The notes beneath the pieces were generated by a model. The model was not told the DNA's origin and did no database searches. It saw only the letters and a program-made list of their open reading frames with translations. This document shows positions 1 to 51,546 of a DNA stretch of 64,000 bases, piece after piece. The position numbers and the translations under genes were made by a program. Source of the stretch: a virus; IMG/VR virus record IMGVR_UViG_3300042448_001702, positions 1 through 64,000 of that record; one strand, given 5' to 3'. Position 1 is the stretch's first letter. Every line of letters starts with the position of its first letter.

Positions 1-245
1 GCACCCTTCTCACTTATATCAGAAATGATTGTAGTGCCAGGTTGAATGATAAGTTTAGCACCATCGGTTACATAAACATATCCTTTCAATGTCCACACTT
101 TGTCTGCTGTCAAAGTTGTTGTTGTGTTAATAGTTCCGGTTAATGTTGTTGATGATGGAATGTTAATAGGTGCATCATCTCCACCCAATTCTTTTTGGCA
201 ACTGAATAGTCCCAAAATTAAAATAATTCCTAATAGTTTTCTCAT
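1..245 (-). CDS. Lipoprotein, partial (runs off left edge)
   Basis: The reading frame starts with a signal peptide ending in a lipobox (LGLFSC), so it is a lipoprotein anchored at Cys16. It continues as a Thr-rich linker and then the phrase DKVWTLKGYVYVTDGAKL, followed by IQPGTTI. This is the opening of a parallel beta-helix-like repeat seen in Bacteroidota surface proteins encoded beside TonB receptors. It overlaps the stop of the upstream TonB receptor by ATGA, so the two are translationally coupled and probably form a receptor/lipoprotein pair. Only about 81 residues are visible because the gene is cut by the window edge. Confidence 0.8.
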   Translation of the reverse strand, partial: MRKLLGIILILGLFSCQKELGGDDAPINIPSSTTLTGTINTTTTLTADKVWTLKGYVYVTDGAKLIIQPGTTIISDISEKG

Positions 246-2719
246 AATGTTAAATTTAATGTTAATGAAATTGTTTGTTCGTTGTTTATTTTTATTAGAT
301 TTCGGTTTTGTAACTTTTGATAATAGATTGATGATTGGCCAAATACATCACCTACTGCCAATTTTATTTCCCCATTTTTGAGTTTATGTAAAAGAGTTAT
401 ATCCAATACATCTCTGCTGTTTTCAAATATGTCTGGGTAACCCTGAAATCCTACTGCTGATATTCTATCACCTACTCTATTGTAAGTTATGTTAAGTGTG
501 TTTTTATTTTTGTGAATATTAACACCACCATTTATTACATAGTTTGATTGCCCTTGTAATTGTCTTTTTATTCCATTTACATTTACTTCAGAATTCATTA
601 CCGAAGTATTGGTATATACATCTAACCAACTCATTACCTTTTTACGAAACTCCAATTCAACACCATAAAGAAGTGCATTATCAGGATTTGTATAAGTTAA
701 TAATAAGTTAGATGGAACTGAACCATCTGCTACTATTTGTTCTATCGGTCTAATGAATTGTTTACCAAATACGGATACTGAAATATTCTCTCCTGCTTTT
801 GGATATAGTTCCCATTTCAAATCTACATTATATATGTCAGATTTTTCTAATTTAGAATTACCCAATATTTGTGCGTTTCTTACAAAATCATAATAAGCAA
901 AATTAGCTACTTCTCTAAATTCAGGTCTTGCCAATGTTTTACTTAATGAAAATCTATACTTTGTTTTTTCTAAATTGTAAGAAAGGTTTAATGATGGTAA
1001 AAGGTCTAAATACTCTCTATTCACATTTACTTTCTGTCCACTAAAATCTGCTGTATTAACATTGAATAGATTATACTCACCTCTCAAACCTGTATTTAGT
1101 TTCCACTTACCCCATTCGTTTTCATACATTGAATAAAGAGAACCTAAATCAAAATCAGCAGTATATCTATCGGTATTGTTTGTTATTTCATCTAACATAT
1201 CAGTTGAAAGGTATCTGAATATTCTTGCATTAAATCCTCTAATCTTTTTTAGATAACCACCACCAACTTTAATGTTACCAAACGATTTGTTGATGTTACC
1301 ATTAAAACTATTCTCATCCATTACACTCCAAAAACGATATGTATCTCTCCATGCAGTAGCATAAGGTTCGTTTACACCTAATGATTTTGTAATTGGATTT
1401 ACTCTATAATCGGGCTGTTCTCTGAATATAAAATTATACCCTAAATTGAAATCCCAATCTTTAAGTTTACCATCTAATTGAGAATTGATTACAATATTAT
1501 TAATGTGGTTAGATGAATTACTTAAAACATTTTGAACATTATCAAAGTTATCACCACTACGGGTTAGGTATGTATCATCTGCCTGATAGTTTACTAATGT
1601 TTTCCAGCTATATCGATTTTCACCTAAATAAGTTAAGTTTAATAAACCATTTGTAGAAAATCTTTTTGTATATAAAATATCTTTATAATCGTATGCTAAT
1701 TCAGTTGATGATTGATAATCCTTTCTTTCAATATTATTTAGAGTAAATGTGTTTCTTACAGTTGAACTAAATAAGGAATTAAATTTTCCTTTTGTATAAC
1801 CAAACGAAAGACCTCCATTTAAGTTTGGAGTAGATGTAAAGGATTCTTCCGTTGGATTGCCGAATTGCTTTGTAAATAATCTCTTATCACCATTGCCACT
1901 AATACGATATTTGTAAGTGGATGGGAATGTGGAAGGGAATTCGGTAGCTTGAACTAACTTGAAACCTTTCGAAGTTGAAACCGAACCCCAACCACTTCCC
2001 AATGAGATATTGAAGAAATTATCGGATACTTCTTTTGTTGTAATCTGAACCAATCCACCACTCCAATCTCCCGGCTGATTTGCGGATGCTGATTTAGAAA
2101 CTATAATGTTATCAATTAATGCGGTTGGAATTATATCAAATGAAAATGCTCTCCTATCAGGTTCGGTTGATGGTAGAAGTGTTTTGTTTAGAATGGCTGA
2201 ATTGTATCTATCTGCCAATCCTCTTACTAATACAAACTTATCGTTTTGAATTGTTACACCACTTACTCTTTTAAGTGCATCACCCACATTTCTATCGGGT
2301 GTTTTTTTAATGAATTCTATTGATACTCCATCCGATACCACATTACTATTTCGGATTGTTCTTACTACCGCTACTTCGGTTACTTTTTGAGGTGCCGCTC
2401 TAACAACAACTTCTGATAATTGTTTTGCATCATCCGCAAATACAATATCAAATGTAGTATCTGATGTTAGGTTTATTTGATTTGTGTAAGTAGTATATCC
2501 AACATAAGATGCTTTGATTTGATATACACCGGATTTTAGATTGATTTTGTATTCTGCGTTTTCATTTGATATGGTAGAAAACTTATTACCATTTACATCT
2601 TCAAATGTAATGTGAGAAAAATATATTTTTTCCGAGTTTGATTTGGTTACACCATTTACATTTACTTGTGCGAATGAAAATATTGGTAACAATAGTAAAA
2701 TAAAAAAGAAACGTTTCAT
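242..2719 (-). CDS. TonB-dependent receptor with carboxypeptidase-regulatory-like domain
   Basis: This 825-residue outer-membrane protein has a signal peptide (residues 1-17, ending FSFAQ). A CarboxypepD_reg-like beta-sandwich (about 20-95) is followed by a plug domain (about 125-240: VGDALKRVSGV, LVRGLADRYN, IIVSKSASANQPGDWSGG) and a long beta-barrel ending in the typical alternating strand SLTLNLTL. Known family members import siderophores, glycans or cobalamin with TonB energy. The substrate cannot be read from the sequence. It is coupled by ATGA to the partial lipoprotein downstream. A receptor this complete is very unusual among phage-like genes. No TTTGG-type promoter is visible upstream. 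Confidence 0.92.
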   Translation of the reverse strand: MKRFFFILLLLPIFSFAQVNVNGVTKSNSEKIYFSHITFEDVNGNKFSTISNENAEYKINLKSGVYQIKASYVGYTTYTNQINLTSDTTFDIVFADDAKQLSEVVVRAAPQKVTEVAVVRTIRNSNVVSDGVSIEFIKKTPDRNVGDALKRVSGVTIQNDKFVLVRGLADRYNSAILNKTLLPSTEPDRRAFSFDIIPTALIDNIIVSKSASANQPGDWSGGLVQITTKEVSDNFFNISLGSGWGSVSTSKGFKLVQATEFPSTFPSTYKYRISGNGDKRLFTKQFGNPTEESFTSTPNLNGGLSFGYTKGKFNSLFSSTVRNTFTLNNIERKDYQSSTELAYDYKDILYTKRFSTNGLLNLTYLGENRYSWKTLVNYQADDTYLTRSGDNFDNVQNVLSNSSNHINNIVINSQLDGKLKDWDFNLGYNFIFREQPDYRVNPITKSLGVNEPYATAWRDTYRFWSVMDENSFNGNINKSFGNIKVGGGYLKKIRGFNARIFRYLSTDMLDEITNNTDRYTADFDLGSLYSMYENEWGKWKLNTGLRGEYNLFNVNTADFSGQKVNVNREYLDLLPSLNLSYNLEKTKYRFSLSKTLARPEFREVANFAYYDFVRNAQILGNSKLEKSDIYNVDLKWELYPKAGENISVSVFGKQFIRPIEQIVADGSVPSNLLLTYTNPDNALLYGVELEFRKKVMSWLDVYTNTSVMNSEVNVNGIKRQLQGQSNYVINGGVNIHKNKNTLNITYNRVGDRISAVGFQGYPDIFENSRDVLDITLLHKLKNGEIKLAVGDVFGQSSIYYQKLQNRNLIKINNEQTISLTLNLTL

Positions 2720-13292: not shown

Positions 13293-14015
13293 TTATAAAT
13301 ATTCTTCTTCCCAAAAATCGTTATTTGGTGAAGTAATCATACCGTGGTCTAAATAATCATTCAACATCTTTACCTGATGTTTTTTCATTTCATTTACCAC
13401 CTTTGTAATATAATGAGTCTTACAATCTGTCATCTCTCTTATCAAGAGATATAGGTGCTTTTTATTAAAGTTTTCTATATATCTACTTCTACGGAATAAT
13501 TCTAATACAGCATCTGCTATTTGTATATCTCTTTTCTTTGTAAATACTTTAGTAAGATTTTGGTCCCAATATTTAAGCATTAATTCTTTAAATTCCACAA
13601 ACTCATCACCTTTTTGTACTTCTTCAAAATCATCAGGTGGATTCCAACTTTCAGGCATTTCAGAAAGTAGTGCTGTTTTTTTGAAACGTTTGTAATTACC
13701 ATTATTTTTTAGAATCAAATGGTTTTTTGCAACAATAGAAAAATAAGAGAATGCTTTACCCTTACCTTCTTTGAACATATGTATTTTTTCAATTAAAGTA
13801 GATACAACTTCCATTTGTATATCTTCTTTAGAAACATCAAAGTATGAAAACTTAAATGTATTAAGAATATTCTCTGCCAATTTTTCAAATGGATATTTTA
13901 TACTTTCTTCGTATATTTTATTTCTTAATTTAAAATCTTCAGATTTATTATATTCTATAATGGCTCTTTCGGTATCCATTGTAAAATACATTTTTTCCTT
14001 CTTTTTTCTAGGCAT
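13293..14015 (-). CDS. T4 gp55-like late sigma factor
   Basis: The 240-residue protein has the core KYPFEKLAENILNTFKFSYF, then DIQMEVVSTLIEKIHMF, then GKAFSYFSIVAKNHLILKNN. This last stretch is the region-2-like helix of T4 gp55-type late sigma factors (cyanophage homologues read AFSYFSVIAKNYLI). A long helical C-terminal part follows. It lacks an obvious region 4, as expected for gp55, which needs a partner for upstream contacts. Inferred role: directing host RNA polymerase to late promoters. The adjoining 1-12.7 kb region, lacking host-type promoters, is the natural target. Confidence 0.75.
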   Translation of the reverse strand: MPRKKKEKMYFTMDTERAIIEYNKSEDFKLRNKIYEESIKYPFEKLAENILNTFKFSYFDVSKEDIQMEVVSTLIEKIHMFKEGKGKAFSYFSIVAKNHLILKNNGNYKRFKKTALLSEMPESWNPPDDFEEVQKGDEFVEFKELMLKYWDQNLTKVFTKKRDIQIADAVLELFRRSRYIENFNKKHLYLLIREMTDCKTHYITKVVNEMKKHQVKMLNDYLDHGMITSPNNDFWEEEYL

Positions 14016-14017
14016 TT

Positions 14018-14305
14018 TTAGATTTCATTTTTATAAGTTTCTATTGTTTCCTTTAATTCAGAAAACACAGCTCCAACTTCATCATCTGATTCAAAAGAAC
14101 CTTTAATATCTATATCTCTCATTTGTTGAAGCATTGATTCTAATTTTTCTTGCGTTCTTGATTGCTTATCATCATAAACATCTATAACATCTCTTAGTTG
14201 TTCATTTTGTTTGACAAGATTAATACCCCTAATCAATAGAAGGATGTTAAATATTATTGAAGCTGGTAGTAAGATTATTAATAAAAAACCAATTAGGTAT
14301 TCCAT
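14018..14305 (-). CDS. Single-TM coiled-coil protein
   Basis: The N-terminal TM helix (about 3-25: LIGFLLIILLPASIIFNILLL) is followed by a Gln/Glu/Lys-rich coiled coil to residue 95. It starts 18 bp after the -7 box of the promoter at 14323-14354 and leads into the sigma-factor gene 2 bp away. Function is unknown. Confidence 0.6.
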   Translation of the reverse strand: MEYLIGFLLIILLPASIIFNILLLIRGINLVKQNEQLRDVIDVYDDKQSRTQEKLESMLQQMRDIDIKGSFESDDEVGAVFSELKETIETYKNEI

Positions 14306-14355: not shown

Positions 14356-14595
14356 TTAGGCTTCTCCAACAGGCCCACCATAATTAAACATAGTTGGTAT
14401 TTTTTCCTGTTCTCTTAATTCCTCTGCAATAGCTTGAAGTTTTTTTAACTTCTTTTTCATTCTTTTATTTAATTTTTCACTATCTAATAAATCGTTTTCT
14501 TCTAATTCTTCAATAAGAGAATCCATATGAACAGATAATGAAAGGATTGCGTTTTGCTGATTCTTAATAATTTCAGCCAATGATTGTACTTCCAT
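14356..14595 (-). CDS. Small coiled-coil protein
   Basis: The 79-residue protein is largely one charged helix (AIAEELREQEKIP, KKLKKLQAI) and ends YGGPVGEA. It has a 1-bp gap to the gene upstream. No family is recognised; an assembly or scaffold role is only a guess. Confidence 0.55.
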   Translation of the reverse strand: MEVQSLAEIIKNQQNAILSLSVHMDSLIEELEENDLLDSEKLNKRMKKKLKKLQAIAEELREQEKIPTMFNYGGPVGEA

Positions 14596-14596
14596 A

Positions 14597-14839
14597 TTAT
14601 AATGCGTAAGAGCCCGAATAAAGGGCTTTTAAATTTTCAGTAATTTCGTAATCAGATTCTCTTTTATATTCGTGCCCAAATGCTTTTTTAATTGATAAAC
14701 TAGCATAACCCATTGCTCCTGCCATTCTTACACATATTCTTTTATATTCCCAAATATCTAAATCATTTGGTACTGTGAATTCTATTTTAGATGCCTCTCG
14801 ATTTTCTTCTTCTTCAATTATAAATATTAATTTTGCCAT
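14597..14839 (-). CDS. Hypothetical 80-residue protein
   Basis: The soluble protein begins MAKLIFIIEEEENREASKIE and contains YKRICVRMAGAMGYASLSIKKAF. Strand-strand-helix order suggests a small alpha/beta fold. It sits between the pseudo-deformylase and a coiled-coil gene, with 9-bp and 1-bp gaps. No function is recognised. Confidence 0.55.
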   Translation of the reverse strand: MAKLIFIIEEEENREASKIEFTVPNDLDIWEYKRICVRMAGAMGYASLSIKKAFGHEYKRESDYEITENLKALYSGSYAL

Positions 14840-14848
14840 TTGTTAAAA

Positions 14849-15433
14849 TTAAATTATACTCCATCCTTTTTGTAGGTAAGAATCAACCTTCTTTGATTTT
14901 ACAAACTCCATTTCACCAGCAGGTCCTTGTAACATAACTCTTTCGTTTCTACCAGGCTCTTTGTCTTTTGTAATTGTTTCTGAATAAACTCTTGTTGGGT
15001 GTGTAATATCAATACCATTTATTGCATCTATTGCTCTTTGTACCAATACACATTCTAATAACCCAATATCTCCAAAAAATTCATCAGCATTTTTCCAATC
15101 TCTATTTTCATTAGTAGCTTTAAATTCAACTTTTCCTAAGTTATCAGTATTAATAATAATGTGTGGGTATCTAACTGTTTTTCTAACTTTATTCTTTTTT
15201 AAAGAATCTTTTTCAAAATATACCAAAGCTTTATCTTTATCAGCATTTGTTATTGTAGGATTTACTAAAGTTAATTCTTCTTCTTGGTTACCCAACCTAA
15301 TCGTTACTATTCTTTTTTCTAAAGATGTATCAAGACCTGTAAATAAAAATCCTTCTAATTTAGAAACTTCTTCTTTGTGTTTTGCAATATCTTCTGATGT
15401 TATTTCAGCTATATCAATTTTTTTTATTTTCAT
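14849..15433 (-). CDS. Degenerate peptide deformylase homologue
   Basis: The 194-residue protein follows the peptide deformylase plan, in this order: LVNP at residues 56-59, an FE-x4 motif at 73-78, basic KVRKTVRY at 82-89, LGKVEF at 99-104, and VQRAIDAING at 131-140. In active enzymes these read NPE, FEGCLS and (V)QHEIDHLNG. Here the metal-binding Cys and both His are replaced (FEKDSL; Q-R-A-I-D-A) and the catalytic Glu is Ala. All three metal ligands are therefore gone, while the framework (VQ..ID..NG) remains. It is probably a non-catalytic binding protein. The C-terminus SKKVDSYLQKGWSII is an added tail. Confidence 0.6.
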   Translation of the reverse strand: MKIKKIDIAEITSEDIAKHKEEVSKLEGFLFTGLDTSLEKRIVTIRLGNQEEELTLVNPTITNADKDKALVYFEKDSLKKNKVRKTVRYPHIIINTDNLGKVEFKATNENRDWKNADEFFGDIGLLECVLVQRAIDAINGIDITHPTRVYSETITKDKEPGRNERVMLQGPAGEMEFVKSKKVDSYLQKGWSII

Positions 15434-15599
15434 TTTGTTTTTGTTTATATTCTTCTATTTTTTCAGTTATATAATCAATAGAACCATCCGGTCCATTATA
15501 TCCCATATAACCTATGTAATATTTTATATTTTCAGGATTCTTTTCCAATTCCTCTTTCATTTCTTCCACAGTTCGTAGATATTTTATTATTTTTGTCAT
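15414..15599 (-). CDS. Hypothetical 61-residue protein
   Basis: The small charged protein has the Tyr/Gly-rich centre YYIGYMGYNGPDGSIDYI and a Lys/Asn-rich tail. Its stop overlaps the start of the pseudo-deformylase by 20 nt. Its start overlaps the cupin stop by one base (TAATG), so it is coupled on both sides. No function is recognised. Confidence 0.5.
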   Translation of the reverse strand: MTKIIKYLRTVEEMKEELEKNPENIKYYIGYMGYNGPDGSIDYITEKIEEYKQKQNENKKN

Positions 15600-15988
15600 T
15601 ATTCTAAATCTTGCGGTCCATTTCTATAAACTCTATAAGAATCTTCATCAAAGTGTTCCGTACTAACCTCAAATACAATTGAATTATCAATTAATGCAGT
15701 TAGTTGGTGTGGTAATCCTTTTTGGATATAAACTACATCACCTTTTTGTAATTGTGTGTAGCATCTTTCTGCTTTATCACCATCAATCCAATCAAATTGA
15801 AATGCTCCGTCTTGAATATACCAAGTTTCGTTTTTCAACATATGATAATGCATTGAAAATTTATTTCCTGAATTTGTGAATACTAAAAGTTTACCACAAT
15901 ATTGTGGGTCATTATGAATCCATAATTCATAACCCCATTGTTTTTCTACCCTCTTTGGGTGTTGAATTTTTACATCTATTGTTGCCAT
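15599..15988 (-). CDS. Cupin-fold protein
   Basis: The 129-residue protein shows both cupin motifs: KFSMHYHMLKNETWYIQDG (about 43-61), with two His and one Glu as metal ligands, and GDVVYIQKGLPHQL (about 83-96) with the last His. The N-terminus KQWGYELWIHN resembles the cupin part of mannose-6-phosphate isomerase type II and sugar epimerase-like proteins. Likely a sugar-phosphate isomerase or binding protein; substrate is unknown. Confidence 0.8.
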   Translation of the reverse strand: MATIDVKIQHPKRVEKQWGYELWIHNDPQYCGKLLVFTNSGNKFSMHYHMLKNETWYIQDGAFQFDWIDGDKAERCYTQLQKGDVVYIQKGLPHQLTALIDNSIVFEVSTEHFDEDSYRVYRNGPQDLE

Positions 15989-20247: not shown

Positions 20248-20724
20248 TTAACCTATCGAAATTGTTCTTTTCTTAGGTTGTTCCTTTTCTCTTTTTGGTA
20301 CTGTAAGTTCCAATACCCCATCGCTGAATTTGGCGTTAATCTTGTCTAAATTAAAAATTGTAGCATCTGCTGTAAAACTTCTTTGGAATGAAGAACGTTT
20401 AAGTTCCCTTCTCAAATAAGTTCCACCAGTAACTTCAGTTTGTCCACCTTTTTCTCCTTTCAAAGTAATAACATCACCATCAACATCAATTGATAGTTGT
20501 TCTTTGCTAAGACCAGGAACTTCTGCTACGATTTCAATTCTGTCATCAAAATTAATGATGTCACATTTTGGGTATGCGCCCTTTTGAAAAACATCAACAC
20601 CAACTTCTTTTGCTAACTCTGGGAATGTGTTAGATAACATTCTGTCAAACAGAGTATCGAATGGTGCTAAGAACTCGTCCCTATGGAATGGGGTAGGGAA
20701 TCCCCTTTGAATTTGATTTTTCAT
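20248..20724 (-). CDS. Small heat-shock protein (Hsp20/alpha-crystallin)
   Basis: The 158-residue chaperone has the alpha-crystallin domain from about residue 50: DRIEIVAEVPGLSKEQLSID, VDGDVITLKGEKG, LRRELKRSSFQRSF, and the late motif DGVLELTVPK. A C-terminal PKKRTISIG supplies the IxI-type anchor. It forms oligomers that hold unfolding proteins. Phage Hsp20 genes are well known in cyanophages. Its leader holds a stem-loop at 20750-20774, and it has its own terminator, so it is a single-gene unit or the end of the HD-protein unit. Confidence 0.95.
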   Translation of the reverse strand: MKNQIQRGFPTPFHRDEFLAPFDTLFDRMLSNTFPELAKEVGVDVFQKGAYPKCDIINFDDRIEIVAEVPGLSKEQLSIDVDGDVITLKGEKGGQTEVTGGTYLRRELKRSSFQRSFTADATIFNLDKINAKFSDGVLELTVPKREKEQPKKRTISIG

Positions 20725-29176: not shown

Positions 29177-32100
29177 ATGCACATGAAAAAAGCAATGTTA
29201 ATGATGTTGGTATTTTTATCAACAGTCTTTGTGGGGTTTGGACAAATCACAACCTCAACTATTTCTGGTATAGTTAAAGACCAGAAAGGACAAATCATAC
29301 CTGGTGCTACGATTCACGCAACACACAACCCAACGGGAACAAATTATTATTCTGTTTCTAACAAAAGTGGTGTGTTTGTAATCCCAGCTGTCAGAGTAGG
29401 AGGTCCTTATATTATCCACGCTTCATTCGTTGGATATAAAAAAGGTGAACTTAAAGATGTAAACACATCATTGGGTTTAACCGAAAACGTAGAATTTGTT
29501 TTATTTGAAGAAGCTACGCAATTAAGTGAAGTAGTTGTTACCGCAAACAAATACGGAATTTTCTCAAAAGAAAAGACCGGTGCGGCTCAGCAATTTGGAC
29601 GTAGAGAATTGACAACAATTCCGATTACAGGTGCTAGAACTATTGATGGAATTACAAAGTACAATCCATTTGGTAGTGGCAACTCTTTCGGAGCTCAAGA
29701 CTCTCGTTTAAATAATTTCACAATTGATGGTTCTCAATTTAACAACAACTTCGGTTTAGGTTCATCTGCACAAGCGGGTGGTAGAACCGGCGCTTCCGCA
29801 ATTTCATTAGATGCGATTGACCAATTGCAGGTGAACGTTGCTCCATTCGATATTCGTCAAAGTGGTTTCACTGGGGCTGGTATCAATGCGGTAACTCGTT
29901 CAGGTTCAAATGAAATTGAAGGTAGTGTTTATCAAACTCAAAGAAATAACTCATCTACATATGTAGGCGATAATGCTAGAGGTACTACAGTTACCGCAGC
30001 TAAGTTTGATGAGAAAGTGCAAGGTTTCAGATTAGGTGCTCCAATTATCAAAAACAAATTATTCATTTTTGGTAACTACGAACAAATCGAAAGAACCGAA
30101 CCTGGAACTAACTGGATTTCGGATGGTTCACCACTTACAGGTACTCAAATCAGTAGAGTTAAGTACGCTGATATGAAAGCTCTTTCTGATTTTATGAAAG
30201 ATAAGTTTGGGTATGTAACAGGTCCTTGGGAAGGTTATTCCAATACAAATGGTTCTAAAAAGTTTTTGATTAGAACTGACTGGAACATTAACGATAAGAA
30301 TAAATTAACTGCTCGTTACGTTCATCATAACTCCAATGCCGAAATTAATATTTCAAACTCACAATCAGCAGGTGCTGGTAATAGAACAACACAATTCAAC
30401 GCAATGAGTTTCCAAAATAGTGGTTACATTATTCAGGACAACACTCGTTCAGCGGTATTAGAATTGAATTCAAATCTATCAAGCACATTATTCAATAACT
30501 TAATTGTTTCTTACGATAAGCAAATTGAAGATAGAGCTTATATGAGTCCTATGTTCCCAACAATTGATATAAGAGAAGGTTCAGCAACTTACACATCAGT
30601 AGGGTTTGACCCATTCACTCCTGGTAACAAATTGGACTATTGGACATTCAATGTAACTAACAACGTAACAAAGTATATGGAAAAGCATACTTTGGTTGGT
30701 GGTTTCAATTTCCAAAAATATCAATCTAATAACCTATTCTTTCCAGCTTCTAATGGTGTTTACATCTTTAATAGCTTGGCAGATTTCTATACAGCAGCTA
30801 ATCAATCTTTAGCAAATGGTGGTAGACCTTCTACATTTGCACCAGCTCGTTTCCAATTCCGTTATTCGGCATTACCGGGAGCAGTTGAACCAATGCAAGT
30901 GTTGAAAACAAATCGTTTAGATTTATATTTGCAAGATGAGTACAATGCAACTCAAAACCTTAAATTAACTTTTGGTTTGAGAGCAAACGTAATATCATTT
31001 GAAAATACGGCTTTAGAAAACAAAGCTATTACAGCTATGACTTTCGCAAATGGTGAGAAGTGGAATACAGGTGTAATGCCTAAAACACAATTGTTATTCG
31101 AACCACGTTTCGGATTTAACTATGATGTGAAAGGTGAAAAGAAAACACAAATTAGAGGTGGTAGTGGTATCTTTACTGGTAGACCTCCTTATGTATTCTT
31201 ATCTAATCAAATTGGTAACAATGGTGTGTTGACAGGATTTATTGATGTAAGTGGTTCAGCGGCATCACAATATGGATTCACCGCAAATCCTAATCAATAT
31301 TTTGTACCATCAACTCCAACATTACCTTCAACATTTGATTTAGCATTAACTGACCCTAACTACAAAATGCCACAAGTTTGGAAAAACAATTTGGCAGTTG
31401 ACCAAAAGTTACCTTGGTTAGGTTTGGTAGCAAGTGTAGAATTACTTTACAATCAAACAATCAATGCAGTTCATTATTATAACGCTAACTTAGATAAACC
31501 AGTTGGTAACCTATTGGGTTCTGATAACAGACCTGTATTCGCAGGTAACGATGCTGGTGTAAGAGTGAATGATAATGTATCTATGGCTGCAGTTCTAACT
31601 AATAGAAATGGGGCTTTCAATCGTTCAGCAACATTCAAATTAGAAAAACCAATCTCTAAAGGCCTTTGGGGTTATGTAGCTTATACAACTGCAAACGCAC
31701 AAGACTTTATGGATGCGGGTTCAATAGCAAGTGGTAGCTGGCAATCAGCGTTATCAACATTTGGTAACAATACATTAAACCTTTCAACTTCTTCTAACTT
31801 AGTAAGAAATCGTATTGTAGGTTTATTGGGTTATAAACTTGATTATGGTAAGAAGTATGGTGGAGCAACTACATTTACATTAGGATATGTAGGAGCACAA
31901 AACAATCCATTCTCTTACATTGTAGCGGGTGACCTTAATGGTGATAGAGTAAATAATAATGACTTAGTATTTGTTCCAACCAAAGGTTCTGATATTAAAT
32001 TCTCTCCATTAACAATAGGTAGTGGAGCAAGTGCAGTAACTTATACTGAAGCTCAACAACAAGCTGCTTTTGATGCTTACATAGCACAAGACCCATACCT

Positions 32101-32470
32101 ATCAACTATAAGAGGTAAATACGCAGAAAGAAATGCATTAGCACTTCCTTTCTTACATAGATTTGACCTTTCAGTTACGCAAGATGTATTTGTGAAAATT
32201 AAAGGAAAGAAAAATGCTTTCCAAATCAGAGCAGATATTCTTAATTTCGGAAATATGTTAAATAATGAGTGGGGTGTTTCTCAAAGAGCAACTAACTCAC
32301 AATTGTTGAACTTTGTAAGTAGAGATGCTAATAACGTTCCAACATATAGATTGGCTACTCAAAGAGATGCTAGTGGTACTTATTTGATTAAGGATACATA
32401 TCAATTCAATTCATCTGTATTTGATGTGTGGACAGCTCAATTAGGTATTCGTTACACTTTTGGTAAGTAA
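29177..32470 (+). CDS. Oar-like TonB-dependent receptor
   Basis: The 1,097-residue outer-membrane protein begins MHMKKAMLMMLVFLSTVFVGFGQ (a start at 29183 is also possible), a clear signal peptide. A CarboxypepD_reg domain (about 30-110: GIVKDQKGQIIPGATIHATH in part) comes next. The plug has LSEVVVTANK, FTIDGSQFNNNFGLG and AFDIRQSGFTGAGINAVTRSG in short blocks. The barrel runs to the final aromatic strand LGIRYTFGK. This is the Oar/SusC-neighbour type typical of Bacteroidota. Its presence in a phage-like genome is odd. It could alter the host surface against rival phages or widen uptake; both are inference. Confidence 0.93.
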   Translation: MHMKKAMLMMLVFLSTVFVGFGQITTSTISGIVKDQKGQIIPGATIHATHNPTGTNYYSVSNKSGVFVIPAVRVGGPYIIHASFVGYKKGELKDVNTSLGLTENVEFVLFEEATQLSEVVVTANKYGIFSKEKTGAAQQFGRRELTTIPITGARTIDGITKYNPFGSGNSFGAQDSRLNNFTIDGSQFNNNFGLGSSAQAGGRTGASAISLDAIDQLQVNVAPFDIRQSGFTGAGINAVTRSGSNEIEGSVYQTQRNNSSTYVGDNARGTTVTAAKFDEKVQGFRLGAPIIKNKLFIFGNYEQIERTEPGTNWISDGSPLTGTQISRVKYADMKALSDFMKDKFGYVTGPWEGYSNTNGSKKFLIRTDWNINDKNKLTARYVHHNSNAEINISNSQSAGAGNRTTQFNAMSFQNSGYIIQDNTRSAVLELNSNLSSTLFNNLIVSYDKQIEDRAYMSPMFPTIDIREGSATYTSVGFDPFTPGNKLDYWTFNVTNNVTKYMEKHTLVGGFNFQKYQSNNLFFPASNGVYIFNSLADFYTAANQSLANGGRPSTFAPARFQFRYSALPGAVEPMQVLKTNRLDLYLQDEYNATQNLKLTFGLRANVISFENTALENKAITAMTFANGEKWNTGVMPKTQLLFEPRFGFNYDVKGEKKTQIRGGSGIFTGRPPYVFLSNQIGNNGVLTGFIDVSGSAASQYGFTANPNQYFVPSTPTLPSTFDLALTDPNYKMPQVWKNNLAVDQKLPWLGLVASVELLYNQTINAVHYYNANLDKPVGNLLGSDNRPVFAGNDAGVRVNDNVSMAAVLTNRNGAFNRSATFKLEKPISKGLWGYVAYTTANAQDFMDAGSIASGSWQSALSTFGNNTLNLSTSSNLVRNRIVGLLGYKLDYGKKYGGATTFTLGYVGAQNNPFSYIVAGDLNGDRVNNNDLVFVPTKGSDIKFSPLTIGSGASAVTYTEAQQQAAFDAYIAQDPYLSTIRGKYAERNALALPFLHRFDLSVTQDVFVKIKGKKNAFQIRADILNFGNMLNNEWGVSQRATNSQLLNFVSRDANNVPTYRLATQRDASGTYLIKDTYQFNSSVFDVWTAQLGIRYTFGK

Positions 32471-35822: not shown

Positions 35823-36134
35823 CTATATTGTATTTAAATAATGTACTAATGATTCTCCAAATAATTCCATATCTTCTAATACAGTATGGTATATAATATC
35901 TTCTATTATAGATGAACTACCTTTATTATCATCTATCAGAGATATTGAATAATACTTTTCGAAATTCTCATCCATCTTAGGCTCTCTTAGTATAACTATC
36001 GTTACACTACGTTTTCCACTTGAGTGTTGTGATTGTAAAGCATAATAGGTTTTTTCTTCCATAATACCTTTACCAATCTGCCAATCACCGAACCATTGGT
36101 TTTTTATTTTTTTAAAATTCTCTATTGTTAGCAT
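35823..36134 (-). CDS. MLTIEN-family protein
   Basis: The true start is the ATG at 36134, giving MLTIENFKKIKNQWFGDWQI. The family plan is a short N-terminal helix motif, a W/G-rich turn, a strand YYALQS, a basic strand TIVILREP, and a helical C-terminus (ESLVHYLNTI). This is the last member of the 35.8-38.7 kb array. No known domain is recognised. Confidence 0.6.
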   Translation of the reverse strand: MLTIENFKKIKNQWFGDWQIGKGIMEEKTYYALQSQHSSGKRSVTIVILREPKMDENFEKYYSISLIDDNKGSSSIIEDIIYHTVLEDMELFGESLVHYLNTI

Positions 36135-36136
36135 AA

Positions 36137-36616
36137 TTAAAATGGTAATAATGGATGATAACCATCCACAATTTTTTCTATCATTCCCCAAAAGGTTTTA
36201 TGATTAATATCCTTAGCATCCAACCAAAACCTCTTATCCCATTGTGCTAAATCATCATGTATATAACATTGATACATCTGATATAGGTTGTTCTCTAAAT
36301 CGGAAACTTGTAATTCTCTACCCAATGTGATGTAAACCCTCAATGAACCATTCTCTCGGTTTCTTAATTGGAATAAATAATTTTCATCGGTTTCATCAGC
36401 AGCGATAACATCCCATCCCCAAAATACACCACTACCCAAATCCTTTGCATAGTTTTGTATCACCAACTTCCTATTCGTGTCGAAGTTAGGATTTTTTTGG
36501 GTTTGATTTTGTTGATAATACTTAGCCGCCCAGCCCATAGCAGAAGCCCAGCCACCACCTTTTGGAGTGGATGTAATCACTATCTTTCCGTTTCCCTTTG
36601 TTCGCATTATACTCAT
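36137..36616 (-). CDS. Divergent MLTIEN-family protein with N-terminal extension
   Basis: The 159-residue protein has a unique N-terminus (PKGGGWASAMGWAAKYYQQN). After about residue 63 it follows the family pattern: VFWGWDVIAADETDENYLFQ, then SLRVYITLGRE, YQMYQCY, and the C-terminal helix HKTFWGMIEKIV. It is joined to the next gene by a one-base stop/start overlap. Confidence 0.55.
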   Translation of the reverse strand: MSIMRTKGNGKIVITSTPKGGGWASAMGWAAKYYQQNQTQKNPNFDTNRKLVIQNYAKDLGSGVFWGWDVIAADETDENYLFQLRNRENGSLRVYITLGRELQVSDLENNLYQMYQCYIHDDLAQWDKRFWLDAKDINHKTFWGMIEKIVDGYHPLLPF

Positions 36617-36945
36617 TACTTATCTATTGAATATTTTAATGCCGTTCCCATCGTCTTAATCGCATTATGGAAATCCGAAAGGAATTGGGCAGAAACGATA
36701 TGTGTGGGTGATTGTGGGTAGTTTAATCTATATACCCATCTACTATCTTTTGAGTCCCATTCCCCAAAACGGCTCACTTCCACCCATATATATCGGAGAG
36801 ATGGCCAATTGTGGTCACAGAATTGGAAACGATAATTTGTATCTGTCTCTACTGTGGTAGTACATACGAATCTTCCATCGTAGAATTCTTCACCTTCCAT
36901 TCTTTTATGGTTGGTTATATGTAGATATTTTTCTACGTCATGCAT
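36616..36945 (-). CDS. MLTIEN-family protein (variant N-terminus)
   Basis: The 109-residue protein starts MHDVEKYLHITNHKRMEGEE, keeping the helix/turn spacing, then TVETDTNYRFQF, RYIWVEVSRFGEW, WVYRLNYP and a C-terminal helix LSDFHNAIKTMG. The Y-x-F and R-x-Y-x-L-x-V core matches the 36137 protein most closely. It overlaps its upstream neighbour by 8 nt. Confidence 0.6.
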   Translation of the reverse strand: MHDVEKYLHITNHKRMEGEEFYDGRFVCTTTVETDTNYRFQFCDHNWPSLRYIWVEVSRFGEWDSKDSRWVYRLNYPQSPTHIVSAQFLSDFHNAIKTMGTALKYSIDK

Positions 36946-37246
36946 AATCTCTGATTATTTGGTTGAAGAATGTGGATACCTTGTCCATCTTCTTAACATA
37001 TTGTTTTGATATTATTGTTATTAGTTTTTTATTCGGGTGGTTTAAGGGGTAGACTTCATCACCGTCCGCATCTATGTAGGATGTTCTATCTAATTCTATC
37101 CAATAGGTATCCCCATATGATGCAGAGGATGAATTCCCATTATGGAACGAGAAACGATAAATCTTTTCGTGCTCTACAACTAGTCCACAAGTCCAATCGC
37201 CAAACTTTAATCCTACTAATTTCTTATAGTTCTCTATCTTTAGCAT
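36938..37246 (-). CDS. MLTIEN-family protein
   Basis: MLKIENYKKLVGLKFGDWTC opens the 102-residue protein, followed by EKIYRFSFHNG, DTYWIELDRTSY, VYPLNHP and the C-terminal helix KKMDKVSTFFNQII. FGDW is shared with the 35823 member (WFGDWQIG), indicating a close pair. Confidence 0.65.
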   Translation of the reverse strand: MLKIENYKKLVGLKFGDWTCGLVVEHEKIYRFSFHNGNSSSASYGDTYWIELDRTSYIDADGDEVYPLNHPNKKLITIISKQYVKKMDKVSTFFNQIIRDYA

Positions 37247-37250
37247 ATTA

Positions 37251-37559
37251 TTATAAGCTCCGTAATATTTCCGTAAATTTATTTACTAAGTTGTTTATAC
37301 TTTTTAAGTATGAAGTTGTGACAAGTTGATTCAACTTCCTATCATCCAAATATAATTCGTAGCATAATTCATTCTCATCCATATTTGGTATATCAACTCT
37401 CGATAGGGTTATCCTTCTAACATCACATATCTTACCTTCTATATTCAAGCGTTCAACAACGAAATGATAAAAGGTATCCGTTTCTCTAACCGAATCGCAT
37501 CTCCAATGTACGTTGAATGGATATTGTTTAATCTTCTCTATGTTATCTATTATTAGCAT
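37251..37559 (-). CDS. MLTIEN-family protein
   Basis: MLIIDNIEKIKQYPFNVHWR, then TDTFYHFVVERLN, VRRITLSRVDIP, ELYLDDR, and the C-terminal helix KSINNLVNKFTEIL make up the 102-residue protein. It overlaps the stop of the next member by one base (TAATG). Confidence 0.65.
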   Translation of the reverse strand: MLIIDNIEKIKQYPFNVHWRCDSVRETDTFYHFVVERLNIEGKICDVRRITLSRVDIPNMDENELCYELYLDDRKLNQLVTTSYLKSINNLVNKFTEILRSL

Positions 37560-37858
37560 TACTTAACTTCGTTTATAAATGATTCAATTAATCTGCTCAT
37601 CTCCCATATATCCCTTATATCATTCTTTGTTACCCAATAGTGTTTCCAACTGATATGGTGACATTGTAAAAGATATTCATCACTATGTGGATGTGGTTTA
37701 CCATTTTGTAATTTTGGTTTATGACGGGCTAGTGTAACTTCTATTGCTTTGCTATCACCCACATCAACAAAGAATGAATAATGAGTATCATAAGTAACAT
37801 TCCACACATTGAATCCAATGCAATTGGTAATCTTATCTAAGTTCTCTATGGTTAGCAT
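37559..37858 (-). CDS. MLTIEN-family protein
   Basis: The start is the ATG at 37858 (MLTIENLDKITNCIGFNVWN); a longer frame upstream would run into the neighbour. It continues with HYSFFVDVGD, AIEVTLARHKP, EYLLQCH and the helix EMSRLIESFINEV. Its 99 residues fit the family size. Confidence 0.65.
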   Translation of the reverse strand: MLTIENLDKITNCIGFNVWNVTYDTHYSFFVDVGDSKAIEVTLARHKPKLQNGKPHPHSDEYLLQCHHISWKHYWVTKNDIRDIWEMSRLIESFINEVK

Positions 37859-37859
37859 A

Positions 37860-38174
37860 TTATTGTTTATAATCATCAAGGAATCTTTCAGTAATCCAAA
37901 AAATAAATTTACTACGATTACTAACCATTTCATAATCCAATTCGTAAGTAGAATGAATCCAATGATTATCCTTATCACAAAATCGTACAACAACGGTATC
38001 GCCTACATTCCAATCTTTTGATATAGTCATCTTAGCATCCAATACACCATCCTTTAGAATACGAAATAGGTATTCAGCTGCATTTTCTCTTTGATATACA
38101 ATTTCACAATGTATATCAGCGGTTAGAGCTTTTGTTGTAATATTCAACCTTTCAGGGTTTTTAATCTTTAACAT
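37860..38174 (-). CDS. MLTIEN-family protein
   Basis: From the ATG at 38174 the protein reads MLKIKNPERLNITTKALTAD, then NAAEYLFRILKDG, TVVVRFCDKDNHW, YELDYE and a C-terminal helix FIFWITERFLDD. It lies 1 bp from the next member. Confidence 0.62.
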   Translation of the reverse strand: MLKIKNPERLNITTKALTADIHCEIVYQRENAAEYLFRILKDGVLDAKMTISKDWNVGDTVVVRFCDKDNHWIHSTYELDYEMVSNRSKFIFWITERFLDDYKQ

Positions 38175-38178
38175 AGGA

Positions 38179-38286
38179 TTAATTTGTGGCGATAAGAATA
38201 AGGATAGCCATAGCAACCAAATAGATTACCATTAACTTTTCACTATCACCTAATGCGTTCCAATATTGTTTTATATACTTTATCAT
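38179..38286 (-). CDS. 35-residue single-TM microprotein
   Basis: The frame MIKYIKQYWNALGDSEKLMV ends in a hydrophobic helix (IYLVAMAILILIATN). It fits exactly between two family genes with 3-4 bp gaps. Confidence 0.55.
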   Translation of the reverse strand: MIKYIKQYWNALGDSEKLMVIYLVAMAILILIATN

Positions 38287-38289
38287 ATC

Positions 38290-38649
38290 TTATCTATTTT
38301 CTGTCCAATACCTTTTACCTCTTTCAACCACCATACCTAACGATGAAATAAAGGTAGAAAAGTTTTGAATATCTTTCCAACCCAATTCCATACAAGTCAC
38401 ACCATGCAATCCCATCCAAAACAATTCGTACTTACCATGTTTGGGGCGGCGGTATAGGTGAATCTCAAATTCATCTTCCCATCGTTTCATTCCATTCGGG
38501 TCATTTTTGTAATAAGGTATTTCGGCAAAATAAAATACATACGAAGATGAATCCACACCATATCTTGCTGCTAATGAAACCTTTTGGATAGTCCGATTAT
38601 GGAATATGTGACCGGTAAGTTTATTGATACCACTAATGTTTAAGACCAT
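38290..38649 (-). CDS. MLTIEN-family protein
   Basis: MVLNISGINKLTGHIFHNRT is a variant of the N-terminal motif; HIFHN also occurs as HLFHN in the 48773 member. SSSYVFYFAEIPYY, EFEIHLYRRPKHGKYELFW and the C-terminal helix DIQNFSTFISSLG follow the family layout. It overlaps the upstream gene by 10 nt. Confidence 0.6.
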   Translation of the reverse strand: MVLNISGINKLTGHIFHNRTIQKVSLAARYGVDSSSYVFYFAEIPYYKNDPNGMKRWEDEFEIHLYRRPKHGKYELFWMGLHGVTCMELGWKDIQNFSTFISSLGMVVERGKRYWTENR

Positions 38650-47189: not shown

Positions 47190-47513
47190 TTATCTTATTA
47201 TAGTTTTAATATGATTGTCCAAGCATATTGTAAAATCGGTTATGGTTTTCATTCTATCTATACTATATACCGAACGTCCATAATAGTTTTGTTTTACTAT
47301 TCCCGTCTCCATTACATACCCATCCATTGCCTTTATCCTATGCAATCGTACCGTCAATTCATCATGCTTAGAATCACCAATTGTCCAATAACCTACCCGT
47401 TTGTGGATTACAAATACATAGTTTTGTGAACCTATAAACATTTCACCTATCTGCCATTCGGCCGTACCTGCGAACTTACTATTGAGTATGTTTATGTTTT
47501 CTATTGTTAGCAT
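47190..47513 (-). CDS. MLTIEN-family protein
   Basis: MLTIENINILNSKFAGTAEW opens it; SQNYVFVIHKRVG, LTVRLHRIKAMDGYVME and the C-terminal helix MKTITDFTICLDNHIKTI follow. It overlaps the upstream member by 35 nt in another frame. 107 residues. Confidence 0.62.
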   Translation of the reverse strand: MLTIENINILNSKFAGTAEWQIGEMFIGSQNYVFVIHKRVGYWTIGDSKHDELTVRLHRIKAMDGYVMETGIVKQNYYGRSVYSIDRMKTITDFTICLDNHIKTIIR

Positions 47514-47820
47514 TTAATAATCCAGTTTGTATGTGTAATTCTAATACGAAATTATCTAAGGTTAAGTTTTCCGGCTTCACATAAGGTTGCCAACTCATTT
47601 TAGGTGCAACTAATTTATATCCCCTTCTACTCTTTTTAGTTCTATGCAATTTATATACAATACCATCCTTTATACTAGCCACCCCAATTTCGGTTAGTGG
47701 AAATACCCCAAAACTATAATGGTCATACCAACTCCGTACAATACCAATTACATACTTCTGTCCACTGCTCATTTGGAATTCCTTACCTTCTATATTTTGT
47801 ATGTTGTCTATTGTAAGCAT
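47479..47820 (-). CDS. MLTIEN-family protein
   Basis: MLTIDNIQNIEGKEFQMSSG opens the 113-residue protein; YDHYSFGVFPLTE, GIVYKLHRTKKSRRGYKLV and NLTLDNFVLELHIQTG follow the family layout, with a basic added tail. Confidence 0.62.
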   Translation of the reverse strand: MLTIDNIQNIEGKEFQMSSGQKYVIGIVRSWYDHYSFGVFPLTEIGVASIKDGIVYKLHRTKKSRRGYKLVAPKMSWQPYVKPENLTLDNFVLELHIQTGLLNANNRKHKHTQ

Positions 47821-47821
47821 A

Positions 47822-48133
47822 TTACTTTGATATTGCTTTACTAATTATGTCCACAATTCTATTCAACCGCCATTCACTCTTTTTTTCCCCTATTGTTTTC
47901 GGCTCGTCATCCTTTGTATTGTTATATACATTGACCGATGTATTGTATTGACTTACCAATGATTGAAAATAAGTTTGATGTAAGTGATGCGGAATGTCCG
48001 TAAAATCAGCCTCAACCGTTACCGGCATTTTAGTACCCGTTCCGTATATTTGTATTGAAGTTTTGATTTGTACCTTACCGCTACCCTTCATTGTCAAACT
48101 GCCATTGTCCGGCGTTATATATAAATTACTCAT
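47822..48133 (-). CDS. Paralogue of 59706-60014 protein
   Basis: The 103-residue beta protein reads GSLTMKGSGKVQIKTSIQIY, then PVTVEADFTDIPHHLHQTYF and SLVSQYNTSVNVYNN. The segment ADF-x2-IP-x3-H-x8-S-x-Y-x2-SV also occurs in the 59706 protein, showing common descent. It sits inside the MLTIEN array. Confidence 0.6.
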   Translation of the reverse strand: MSNLYITPDNGSLTMKGSGKVQIKTSIQIYGTGTKMPVTVEADFTDIPHHLHQTYFQSLVSQYNTSVNVYNNTKDDEPKTIGEKKSEWRLNRIVDIISKAISK

Positions 48134-48432
48134 TGTACTAATTCTTTTATTTGTTGTATTAATAGTTCTGGGTTTTGTAATTTAGTTTTATCCAACATTC
48201 TACGCTTAGGAACTGCAGTAGGTAGTGGTGCATTGTGCTGATAGCTATCCCAACACCATAATTCATATTGTACACCTATTGGATTACGTTCTAAATTAAT
48301 TTGTATTCTTTGCCCAACTGAGTTCATTAGTGTGAATAGGTATGCGGTATTTATTGTTTCTACTTTACCAATACGCCACAAATTGCTAACGTCCTTTTTA
48401 TAAACCTTTGTTATGTTTTCTATTGTAAGCAT
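48130..48432 (-). CDS. MLTIEN-family protein
   Basis: MLTIENITKVYKKDVSNLWR opens the 100-residue protein; NTAYLFTLMNSVG, RIQINLERNP, YELWCW and the C-terminal helix PELLIQQIKELVQ follow. It starts in the stop of the next member (TAATG). Confidence 0.65.
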   Translation of the reverse strand: MLTIENITKVYKKDVSNLWRIGKVETINTAYLFTLMNSVGQRIQINLERNPIGVQYELWCWDSYQHNAPLPTAVPKRRMLDKTKLQNPELLIQQIKELVQ

Positions 48433-48776
48433 TACTTAAAAAAGTTTCTTTTTATTTCACTTTGTATTGATACTAAATAATCTTGCAACATAACAATAAA
48501 CCTATTGTAATTTGTCAAGTCCTTTATATCAACGTAATTGGTAGCTTCTATTAAATTGTTTTCAAATCGGTAACCTTCATTATCTTTATTTTTGTGTCTG
48601 TCCAACCAAATGACTAATGGTATATCCCCTAATCCAATATCAAAATCAAATGTGTAACTATTGCTATTCAATATAAGGTCATCATTGACTTGTTCTACTC
48701 TTATACATTGTATAGTTTTAGAATCAAAGTTCCAATACGTTTTTTCAATTCTTTTTATGTTTTCTATTGTAATCAT
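48432..48776 (-). CDS. MLTIEN-family protein
   Basis: From the ATG at 48776 (overlapping the upstream stop by ATGA) the protein reads MITIENIKRIEKTYWNFDSK. SNSYTFDFDIGLG, LVIWLDRHKNKDNEGYRFE and NRFIVMLQDYLVSI follow. 114 residues. Confidence 0.65.
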   Translation of the reverse strand: MITIENIKRIEKTYWNFDSKTIQCIRVEQVNDDLILNSNSYTFDFDIGLGDIPLVIWLDRHKNKDNEGYRFENNLIEATNYVDIKDLTNYNRFIVMLQDYLVSIQSEIKRNFFK

Positions 48777-49063
48777 TCCCAAGTTACTGATGTATCAATT
48801 ATCAATTCTAATTTTTTAAGAAATAATGTTTTATCTTTAATCACATCCAAATCACAATATACCATCGTCTTATTGAAAGTATTTTCCAATATATAAACAG
48901 GCGTTGCTTCTTTTCTTAATTCAATTATTTGTGCAAATGGTGATTTTAAATCCTTAATGTGAAAATACGTTTTTACCAATGAGTCCTCACATTTGTAAAT
49001 AAGGTATCTGCCATTATGAAATAAATGCCCTTCTATTGTTTTAAGGTTTTCAAACTTCAGCAT
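48773..49063 (-). CDS. MLTIEN-family protein
   Basis: MLKFENLKTIEGHLFHNGRY opens the 96-residue protein; VKTYFHIKDLKSP, IIELRKEATPVYILE and LFLKKLELIID follow. It is the first member of the 47.2-49.1 kb array and follows the nuclease-like gene by 1 bp. Confidence 0.62.
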   Translation of the reverse strand: MLKFENLKTIEGHLFHNGRYLIYKCEDSLVKTYFHIKDLKSPFAQIIELRKEATPVYILENTFNKTMVYCDLDVIKDKTLFLKKLELIIDTSVTWE

Positions 49064-50268: not shown

Positions 50269-50782
50269 TGTTTTCTTTATGTCCGATGTATCGTGCTAAT
50301 ACAAAAAAGAAATCACTTAATCGGTTTAAGTATTTAGTTATAATAGCAACCCTTTCAGTATTTTCCATAACTAAACAATTCAATACCTCAATTTCGGCTC
50401 TACGGCATATCGTTCTACAAATATGTGCGTATGTTTGTGCTTTACTACCATTTGGTAAAATAAAGTTTTTCAAATCTGGCAACTGATTATTTAAACCATC
50501 CATAACAGTTTCCAAAACTTCAATGTCATCTTCCGTTACATTTGTTATCGGTGAATTGTTATCATTGATAATCATTGAACCTGCGTTAAATAAATCCCAT
50601 TGAATTTCCTCAAGCAACCCACCTTCAGGTTTGTATTCAGTTCGGAGTAACCCTACAAATGAATTCAATTCATCTAATGCACCTACTGCTCTAATTTCAG
50701 GATAAAGTTTTGATACTCTACGGCCTGATAATAACGATGTAGTCCCACTATCCCCTTTCTTTGTATAAACTTTGTTAGCCAT
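50240..50782 (-). CDS. Cob(I)alamin adenosyltransferase, PduO type
   Basis: The 180-residue enzyme has the PduO-type ATP-binding start VYTKKGDSGTTSLLSGRRV and the helix VGALDELNSFVGLLRTEY. The active-site block ICRTICRRAEIEV and the end YLNRLSDFFFVLARYIGH follow. It converts cob(I)alamin to adenosylcobalamin. In a phage this would support a B12-dependent (class II) ribonucleotide reductase, perhaps encoded outside the window. It is coupled to cyclophilin by a one-base overlap. Confidence 0.9.
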   Translation of the reverse strand: MANKVYTKKGDSGTTSLLSGRRVSKLYPEIRAVGALDELNSFVGLLRTEYKPEGGLLEEIQWDLFNAGSMIINDNNSPITNVTEDDIEVLETVMDGLNNQLPDLKNFILPNGSKAQTYAHICRTICRRAEIEVLNCLVMENTERVAIITKYLNRLSDFFFVLARYIGHKENIDETIWKND

Positions 50783-51228
50783 TAAATGTTTGTTTCTTTA
50801 ATGATTTCCATTGAATGAATAGCATCACCTTGTCTGATAAAATCAATAACTTCAACTCCATCAATCACTTTACCAAAGCACGTATGGTTGCCATCCAAAT
50901 GTGCAACTCCTGCTCTATTGTGACAAATAAAGAATTGTGAACCACCGGTGTTTCTACCCCGATGTGCCATACTTAGGACACCTCTATCGTGATATTGTTT
51001 TGGTGCACTCACTTCACATTGAATTGAATACCCCGGTCCACCGTCACCTCTACCATTCGGACATCCACCCTGAACCATAAAGTTTGGAATAACTCTGTGA
51101 AAGTTTAATCCGTTATAGAATCCTTGCTCAACTAATTTCTTAAAGTTGCCGGATGCTATTGGTGTTTCATCGTATAGCTCTGCTATCATGTCACCTTTTG
51201 CTGTTTTAATTAATACTTTTGTTGCCAT
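50782..51228 (-). CDS. Cyclophilin-type peptidyl-prolyl isomerase
   Basis: The 148-residue enzyme has the cyclophilin core: YNGLNFHRVIPNFMVQGG (catalytic Arg in FHRV), RGDGGPGYSI, MAHRGRNTGGSQFFICHN, and DGNHTCFGKVIDGVEVID. There is no signal peptide, so it is cytoplasmic. It sits next to GroES, making a small folding-helper group. Confidence 0.96.
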   Translation of the reverse strand: MATKVLIKTAKGDMIAELYDETPIASGNFKKLVEQGFYNGLNFHRVIPNFMVQGGCPNGRGDGGPGYSIQCEVSAPKQYHDRGVLSMAHRGRNTGGSQFFICHNRAGVAHLDGNHTCFGKVIDGVEVIDFIRQGDAIHSMEIIKETNI

Positions 51229-51237
51229 AGTTTTATT

Positions 51238-51546
51238 TTATCTTATTACCATTAATAATTCTTGTTCTCTAAACAAATAATATTCTTTATTGTTTAGTTT
51301 TACCGTCTGAGCAGTTCCTATTTGTGGCATCATTACTTTATCCCCAACCTTTACAGTCATTGGTATTTTAACACCATCGTTTGTGTAAACACCATCACCA
51401 ACTGAAACTACGGTGCCTATTTTTGTATCTTCAGCTTTAGCAGTTTCAGGAATTATAATACCGCCTGCTGTTTTTGTTTGTACTTCCTCTTTTTCAATAA
51501 GTACTCTGTCCGCTAATGGTTTAGCTAATTCAAATTGTTCTGCCAT
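51238..51546 (-). CDS. groES: GroES-type co-chaperonin
   Basis: The 102-residue protein has KPLADRVLIEKEEVQTKTAG with the mobile loop GGIIIPETAKAED, then GTVVSVGDGVYT and the end YYLFREQELLMVI. It is near normal GroES length (about 95). Phage-encoded GroES homologues (such as T4 gp31) can alter the host GroEL chamber for capsid folding; that role is likely here. Confidence 0.95.
   Translation of the reverse strand: MAEQFELAKPLADRVLIEKEEVQTKTAGGIIIPETAKAEDTKIGTVVSVGDGVYTNDGVKIPMTVKVGDKVMMPQIGTAQTVKLNNKEYYLFREQELLMVIR

Follow-up and report, generated by a model that had tools for sequence, protein, structure and literature searches.

Functional peptide deformylases (PDFs) are marked by three motifs: motif I, which holds a Gln, motif II, EGCLS, and motif III, HExxH. 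Several phage PDFs are active, and two marine viral PDFs failed to complement (PMC5591237). The PDFs of Vibrio phage VP16T and cyanophage S-SSM7 (PDB 5mtc, 3uwa; Grzela 2017, PMC5591237) keep the catalytic motifs, have measured activity and end in a short C-terminus that lacks the tail described below. Altered motifs, with reduced or absent activity, have been described for the type 3 PDFs of Archaea, trypanosomatids and the accessory PDFs of S. aureus and S. pneumoniae (PMC12690207, PMC5591237). E. coli PDF contacts the ribosome through its C-terminal region, and phage PDFs had been believed to have no region of this kind (PMC12690207, PMC5591237). The SEC-C domain of SecA sediments with ribosomes on its own and binds 70S ribosomes and SecB, and blocking or modifying the metal-binding cysteines of SecA abolished ribosome binding (PMC6620043). 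Inactive or weakly active PDFs are thus already known as type 3; new with respect to the open-licence literature that we searched, where we found no description of either, are a conserved clade of phage PDFs in which none of the five catalytic residues is left and phage PDFs fused to SEC-C-type tails.

The gene described here lies at 14849 to 15433 on the minus strand of the window (the whole analysed stretch of 64,000 nucleotides, positions 1 to 64,000 of IMG/VR record IMGVR_UViG_3300042448_001702), with its ATG at 15433 and its stop at 14849, and encodes 194 residues. A first-pass annotation, made from the sequence alone, had placed the gene correctly and regarded its product as a deformylase homologue; it had called for structure prediction and a profile search, and had named the absence of a deformylase fold on structural comparison as the outcome that would speak against it. 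Taken singly, the window protein matched PF01327 below the Pfam cut-off (E 5.7e-4, 19.9 bits against 22.8), and no PHROG fitted it in the PHROG comparison; in the clade of relatives described below, four of the six large contigs gave a PF01327 match above the cut-off. A profile of 19 family sequences found PDFs as its best PDB matches (E 7.7e-4). The AlphaFold2 model built from a 42-sequence alignment, which replaced an earlier one (19 sequences, pLDDT 71), reached a pLDDT of 89.5 and a pTM of 0.72, and when it was compared with the PDB by Foldseek, all 50 of the 50 matches listed were PDFs (best E 4.2e-5; target TM-scores among them up to 0.69), the fold being shared with the VP16T and S-SSM7 enzymes. 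Moreover, a full-length BLAST alignment with an intact phage PDF (L176) gave 43% identity over 195 columns (E 2e-44). The homology to deformylases is real, the structural comparison found the deformylase fold, and the window protein is a PDF by fold and descent.

We aligned the window protein with its phage relatives, using E. coli PDF as the numbering reference. None of the five catalytic residues is left in it: Gln50 is replaced by Asp, Cys90 by Asp, His132 by Arg, Glu133 by Ala and His136 by Ala. Residue 35 (15329 to 15331, minus strand) is the Asp that stands for the motif I Gln, and it is Asp in 42 of 42 distinct members of the group that shares these losses (hereafter the dead clade) and Gln in 74 of 74 intact relatives. 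Residues 74 to 76 (15206 to 15214, minus strand) read E-K-D in place of the E-G-C of motif II, with the metal ligand Cys90 replaced by Asp or Glu in 42 of 42; the placement of a short gap after E74 varies between alignments, and the Cys is absent in both. At residues 132 to 137 (15023 to 15040, minus strand), Q-R-A-I-D-A takes the place of the motif III Q-H-E-x-D-H, with neither metal His nor the catalytic Glu left. Across the clade, position 50 is D, 90 is D or E, 132 is R or K, 133 is L, A or G, and 136 is A or S; none of the 42 members keeps any of the five residues or carries the motifs of the enzyme, and all five are present in each of the 74 other phage relatives in the alignment. The first-pass annotation had listed the metal-binding Cys, the two His ligands and the catalytic Glu as lost, all of which the alignment bears out, and had missed both the loss of the motif I Gln and the fixed nature of three of the replacements, Asp35, Asp76 (or Glu) and Arg133 (or Lys).

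Gly45 and Gly89 line the PDF substrate cleft. In the dead clade, Gly45 of motif I has given way to larger residues and Gly89 of motif II to Lys in 39 of 42 members, and hence the cleft is probably filled, which speaks against binding of fMet-peptides. Structural residues such as E88, Q131, D135 and the LxNP motif are retained; neither the sole Cys (C128) nor any His (19, 91, 145) of the window protein is conserved across the clade. The loss of the catalytic residues is near certain, and from the sequence we infer that the window protein is without deformylase activity, with the caution that some type 3 PDFs with altered motifs have been reported to be active (PMC12690207), which counts against assuming inactivity from sequence. 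As described, the type 3 PDFs have substitutions in some motifs, whereas the dead clade has lost all five positions and arose within phage PDFs.

The closest intact proteins are the tail-bearing PDFs of T4-like environmental phages (L176, L138, L125 and the 484-kb phage LR756508), which share at most 43% full-length identity with the window protein in the compared pairs, have the C-terminal tail and gene order in common with it, and keep the Gln, Cys, His, Glu and His of which it has none. In a PDF tree computed by a quick method from an alignment stripped of its catalytic columns, the dead proteins group as a single clade (SH-aLRT 100, stem 0.82) inside the intact tail-bearing phage PDFs, the exact sister group being unsure in that long branches meet near the stem (L127). 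Further scans yielded 92 distinct sequences, of which 72 were intact, 19 dead and one fragmentary dead, and no partial-loss intermediate was found among these 92: the pattern is all-or-none. The active site was lost once, on one branch of phage PDFs. The median dN/dS is 0.187 in the dead set versus 0.166 in the intact set, and the dead clade is under purifying selection. When residues kept in both groups were counted, the conservation of GRN was partly biased, because the intact set had been chosen by its GRN motif. A search for a second PDF with PF01327 gave no match in the window's own 160-kb record, and in six dead-clade contigs of 133 to 274 kb the dead gene was the only match; the record and the contigs are possibly incomplete, which limits the absence of a second PDF. 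No cellular relatives of the dead clade were found in the genome collection.

Dead and intact PDFs of the group have in common a C-terminal tail of about 34 residues with the pattern GRN[DE]..V....G....KxKKA..L...G. In the window protein it comprises residues 161 to 194 (14852 to 14953, minus strand; GRNERVML...VKSKKVDSYLQKGW) and is predicted to fold as strand-strand-helix. We found no such tail on non-PDF proteins in the loci examined, nor as a mobile tag elsewhere in the window phage genome. One intact relative (L182) ends in GRNDPCHCGSGKKYKKCCM, which is the SEC-C zinc motif, and a pattern scan found PDFs with SEC-C or SEC-C-like tails in the equivalent place on 53 viral contigs (L309-L361). 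Of three SEC-C-tailed phage PDFs tested with PF02810, two were confirmed, one of them at E 8e-10, and the third, which has an extended hairpin (L359), fell below the cut-off. On a tree of the PDF core, metal-free and SEC-C tails interleave, with nine changes by parsimony, about three of them forced by well-supported branches. Comparison of the metal-free tails with SEC-C by hhalign gave a score of 21.1 and a probability of 69% over a short match of 19 columns, as against a mean of 7.2 and a maximum of 15.6 for 200 column shuffles and 13.05 for the reversed profile. The window tail resembles the SEC-C of SecA, YchJ and the phage PDF-SEC-C fusions (PF02810) in its place after the PDF core, its GRN[DE] start and its K-x-K end, but its hairpin is longer, it is free of Cys, with the CxCx8C(H/C) ligands absent, and a PF02810 search of it gave no match. 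The tail is not a member of the SEC-C family, because the defining cysteines are absent; it is probably a metal-free SEC-C derivative or a functional stand-in. A likeness of the tail to PHROG 1175 (E 0.0094) led nowhere.

The gene sits within a tight run of minus-strand genes. Upstream of it are a cupin gene (15599 to 15988; PHROG 7851, cysteine dioxygenase-like) and a 61-aa gene (15414 to 15599) that overlaps its start by 20 bases; downstream follow an 80-aa gene (14597 to 14839) that starts 9 bases past its stop, a 79-aa gene (14356 to 14595), a 95-aa gene with a hydrophobic N-terminus (14018 to 14305) and, at the end of the block, a 240-aa gene (13293 to 14015), all on the minus strand. By eye, the 240-aa protein looks like a sigma factor of the T4 gp55 type, an identity that no profile library confirmed. 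This order, cupin - 61 aa - PDF - 80 aa - 79 aa - 95 aa - 240 aa, holds with few gaps in the dead clade, and the order PDF - 80 aa - 79 aa - (about 190 aa) - 95 aa - 240 aa is found in most of the closest intact relatives (for example L125, L131, L138 and L150), implying that the dead gene is the positional counterpart of an active-looking PDF and no stray copy. Flavobacterium phage immuto and Microcystis phage Mel-JY01 both share the 240-aa gene, and in neither was a PDF found beside it. In two relatives (L070 and L072), the homologue of the 61-aa gene is part of a 411-aa gene, and the 61-aa gene may therefore be a fragment or domain of a larger protein. In six (L064, L066, L070, L072, L076 and L083), several genes coding for roughly 204-207 aa break up the block close to thymidylate synthase; these may be homing endonucleases.

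Replication genes of the T4 type are present in the 160-kb record (DNA polymerase, clamp loader, DnaB-like helicase, UvsX-like recombinase and ssDNA-binding protein), and the carriers of the dead clade are large T4-like phages. Their hosts are probably Bacteroidota, given the Bacteroidota-type outer-membrane genes and the Flavobacterium phage match to the 240-aa gene. The outer-membrane genes of the window are large and receptor-like (TonB plug and beta-barrel, OMP_b-brl_4; 242 to 2719, minus strand, and 29177 to 32470, plus strand), an unusual cargo for a phage. The window also holds genes for the protein-folding helpers Hsp20 (20248 to 20724), a cyclophilin prolyl isomerase (50782 to 51228) and GroES (51238 to 51546), as well as two arrays of genes of about 100 aa (35823 to 38649 and 47190 to 49063) that by eye appear to be paralogues, many of which start with MLTIENI or MLKIEN.

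The first-pass annotation had proposed that a conserved, catalytically dead form was kept for a non-enzymatic role, and this is well supported by the single clade, the purifying selection, the fixed replacements and the conserved operon. Chance resemblance or a decaying gene, which the weak single-sequence Pfam score might suggest, is ruled out by the PDF fold, the descent (43% identity to an intact PDF), a dN/dS of 0.19 and an intact reading frame in 42 distinct relatives. Continued enzymatic function, through a reconstructed metal site or a different chemistry, is very improbable: the replacements are fixed, not random (Asp35, Asp76/Glu, Arg133/Lys), and selection is strong, but no conserved Cys or His is left, an invariant Arg or Lys occupies the place of a metal His, and the oxyanion Gln and the cleft glycines are gone.

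A pseudoenzyme might instead have no ribosomal role and serve as a partner of other products of its operon (the 61-, 80-, 79- or 95-aa proteins or the sigma-like 240-aa protein), such as in the expression of late genes or the assembly of the particle. In dead and intact lineages alike the block is compact and conserved, and the neighbourhood is constant across the dead clade; however, intact PDFs hold the equivalent place, implying that the position is older than the catalytic loss and gives no sign of a new partner, and the tail is also present on intact PDFs outside the block. We regard this explanation as unlikely, if well short of negligible. Less likely still is an antagonist of the deformylase of the host or of a co-infecting phage, which would compete for the ribosomal docking site or form a mixed complex; the first-pass annotation had raised inhibition of the host enzyme, which our findings neither favour nor contradict. 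The full PDF fold is kept, catalysis is, judged from sequence, gone, and no second PDF was found in the six clade contigs or the 160-kb record. Yet bacterial PDFs are generally active as monomers, and an active-looking PDF is retained at the equivalent place in sister phages, so that lowering deformylation in the host is no evident common goal.

The descent, the loss of residues, the conservation, and the retention of the tail in an equivalent position are observed. The reading we put forward, tentatively and at somewhat under an even chance, is that the pseudo-deformylase is kept as a non-catalytic docking protein acting through its tail, most likely near the ribosome exit; docking to the ribosome itself is possible, at a shade lower probability. 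The exit site had been suggested in the first-pass annotation, and the idea gains indirect support from the retained tail, which occupies the position that the ribosome-binding SEC-C motif has on other phage PDFs and shows a distant profile similarity to it. The simplest account is that the tail had a docking role in the intact phage PDFs that was kept after catalysis was lost. The ancestor was a tail-bearing phage PDF at the equivalent locus, and on one branch the whole catalytic apparatus was lost and the metal site refilled by the fixed charged residues Asp35, Asp76 and Arg133. The deformylase body would then serve as a rigid scaffold, while the C-terminal module, as a relative of SEC-C without metal or a mere look-alike, would bring the protein to the ribosome near the exit tunnel, where it might displace or modulate host PDF, methionine aminopeptidase, trigger factor or SecA, or recruit phage partners; an effect on the host is inferred here. 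Against this stands the loss of ribosome binding in SecA once its metal-binding cysteines were modified (PMC6620043); a metal-free tail may therefore bind in another way or to a different partner.

The common explanation for deformylases in phages is that they boost deformylation in the host. A conserved clade of phages that retains the PDF and drops its chemistry shows that the protein can be worth keeping for something else, and the SEC-C or SEC-C-like tails on many phage PDFs suggest that this role may be attachment to the translation or targeting machinery. A phage PDF may even have become a dedicated non-catalytic factor of the ribosome exit, with the metal sites of both enzyme and tail gone and the docking surfaces kept, which would occupy the site of nascent-chain processing and redirect the N-terminal processing or protein targeting of the host during infection, although we consider this fuller scenario doubtful.
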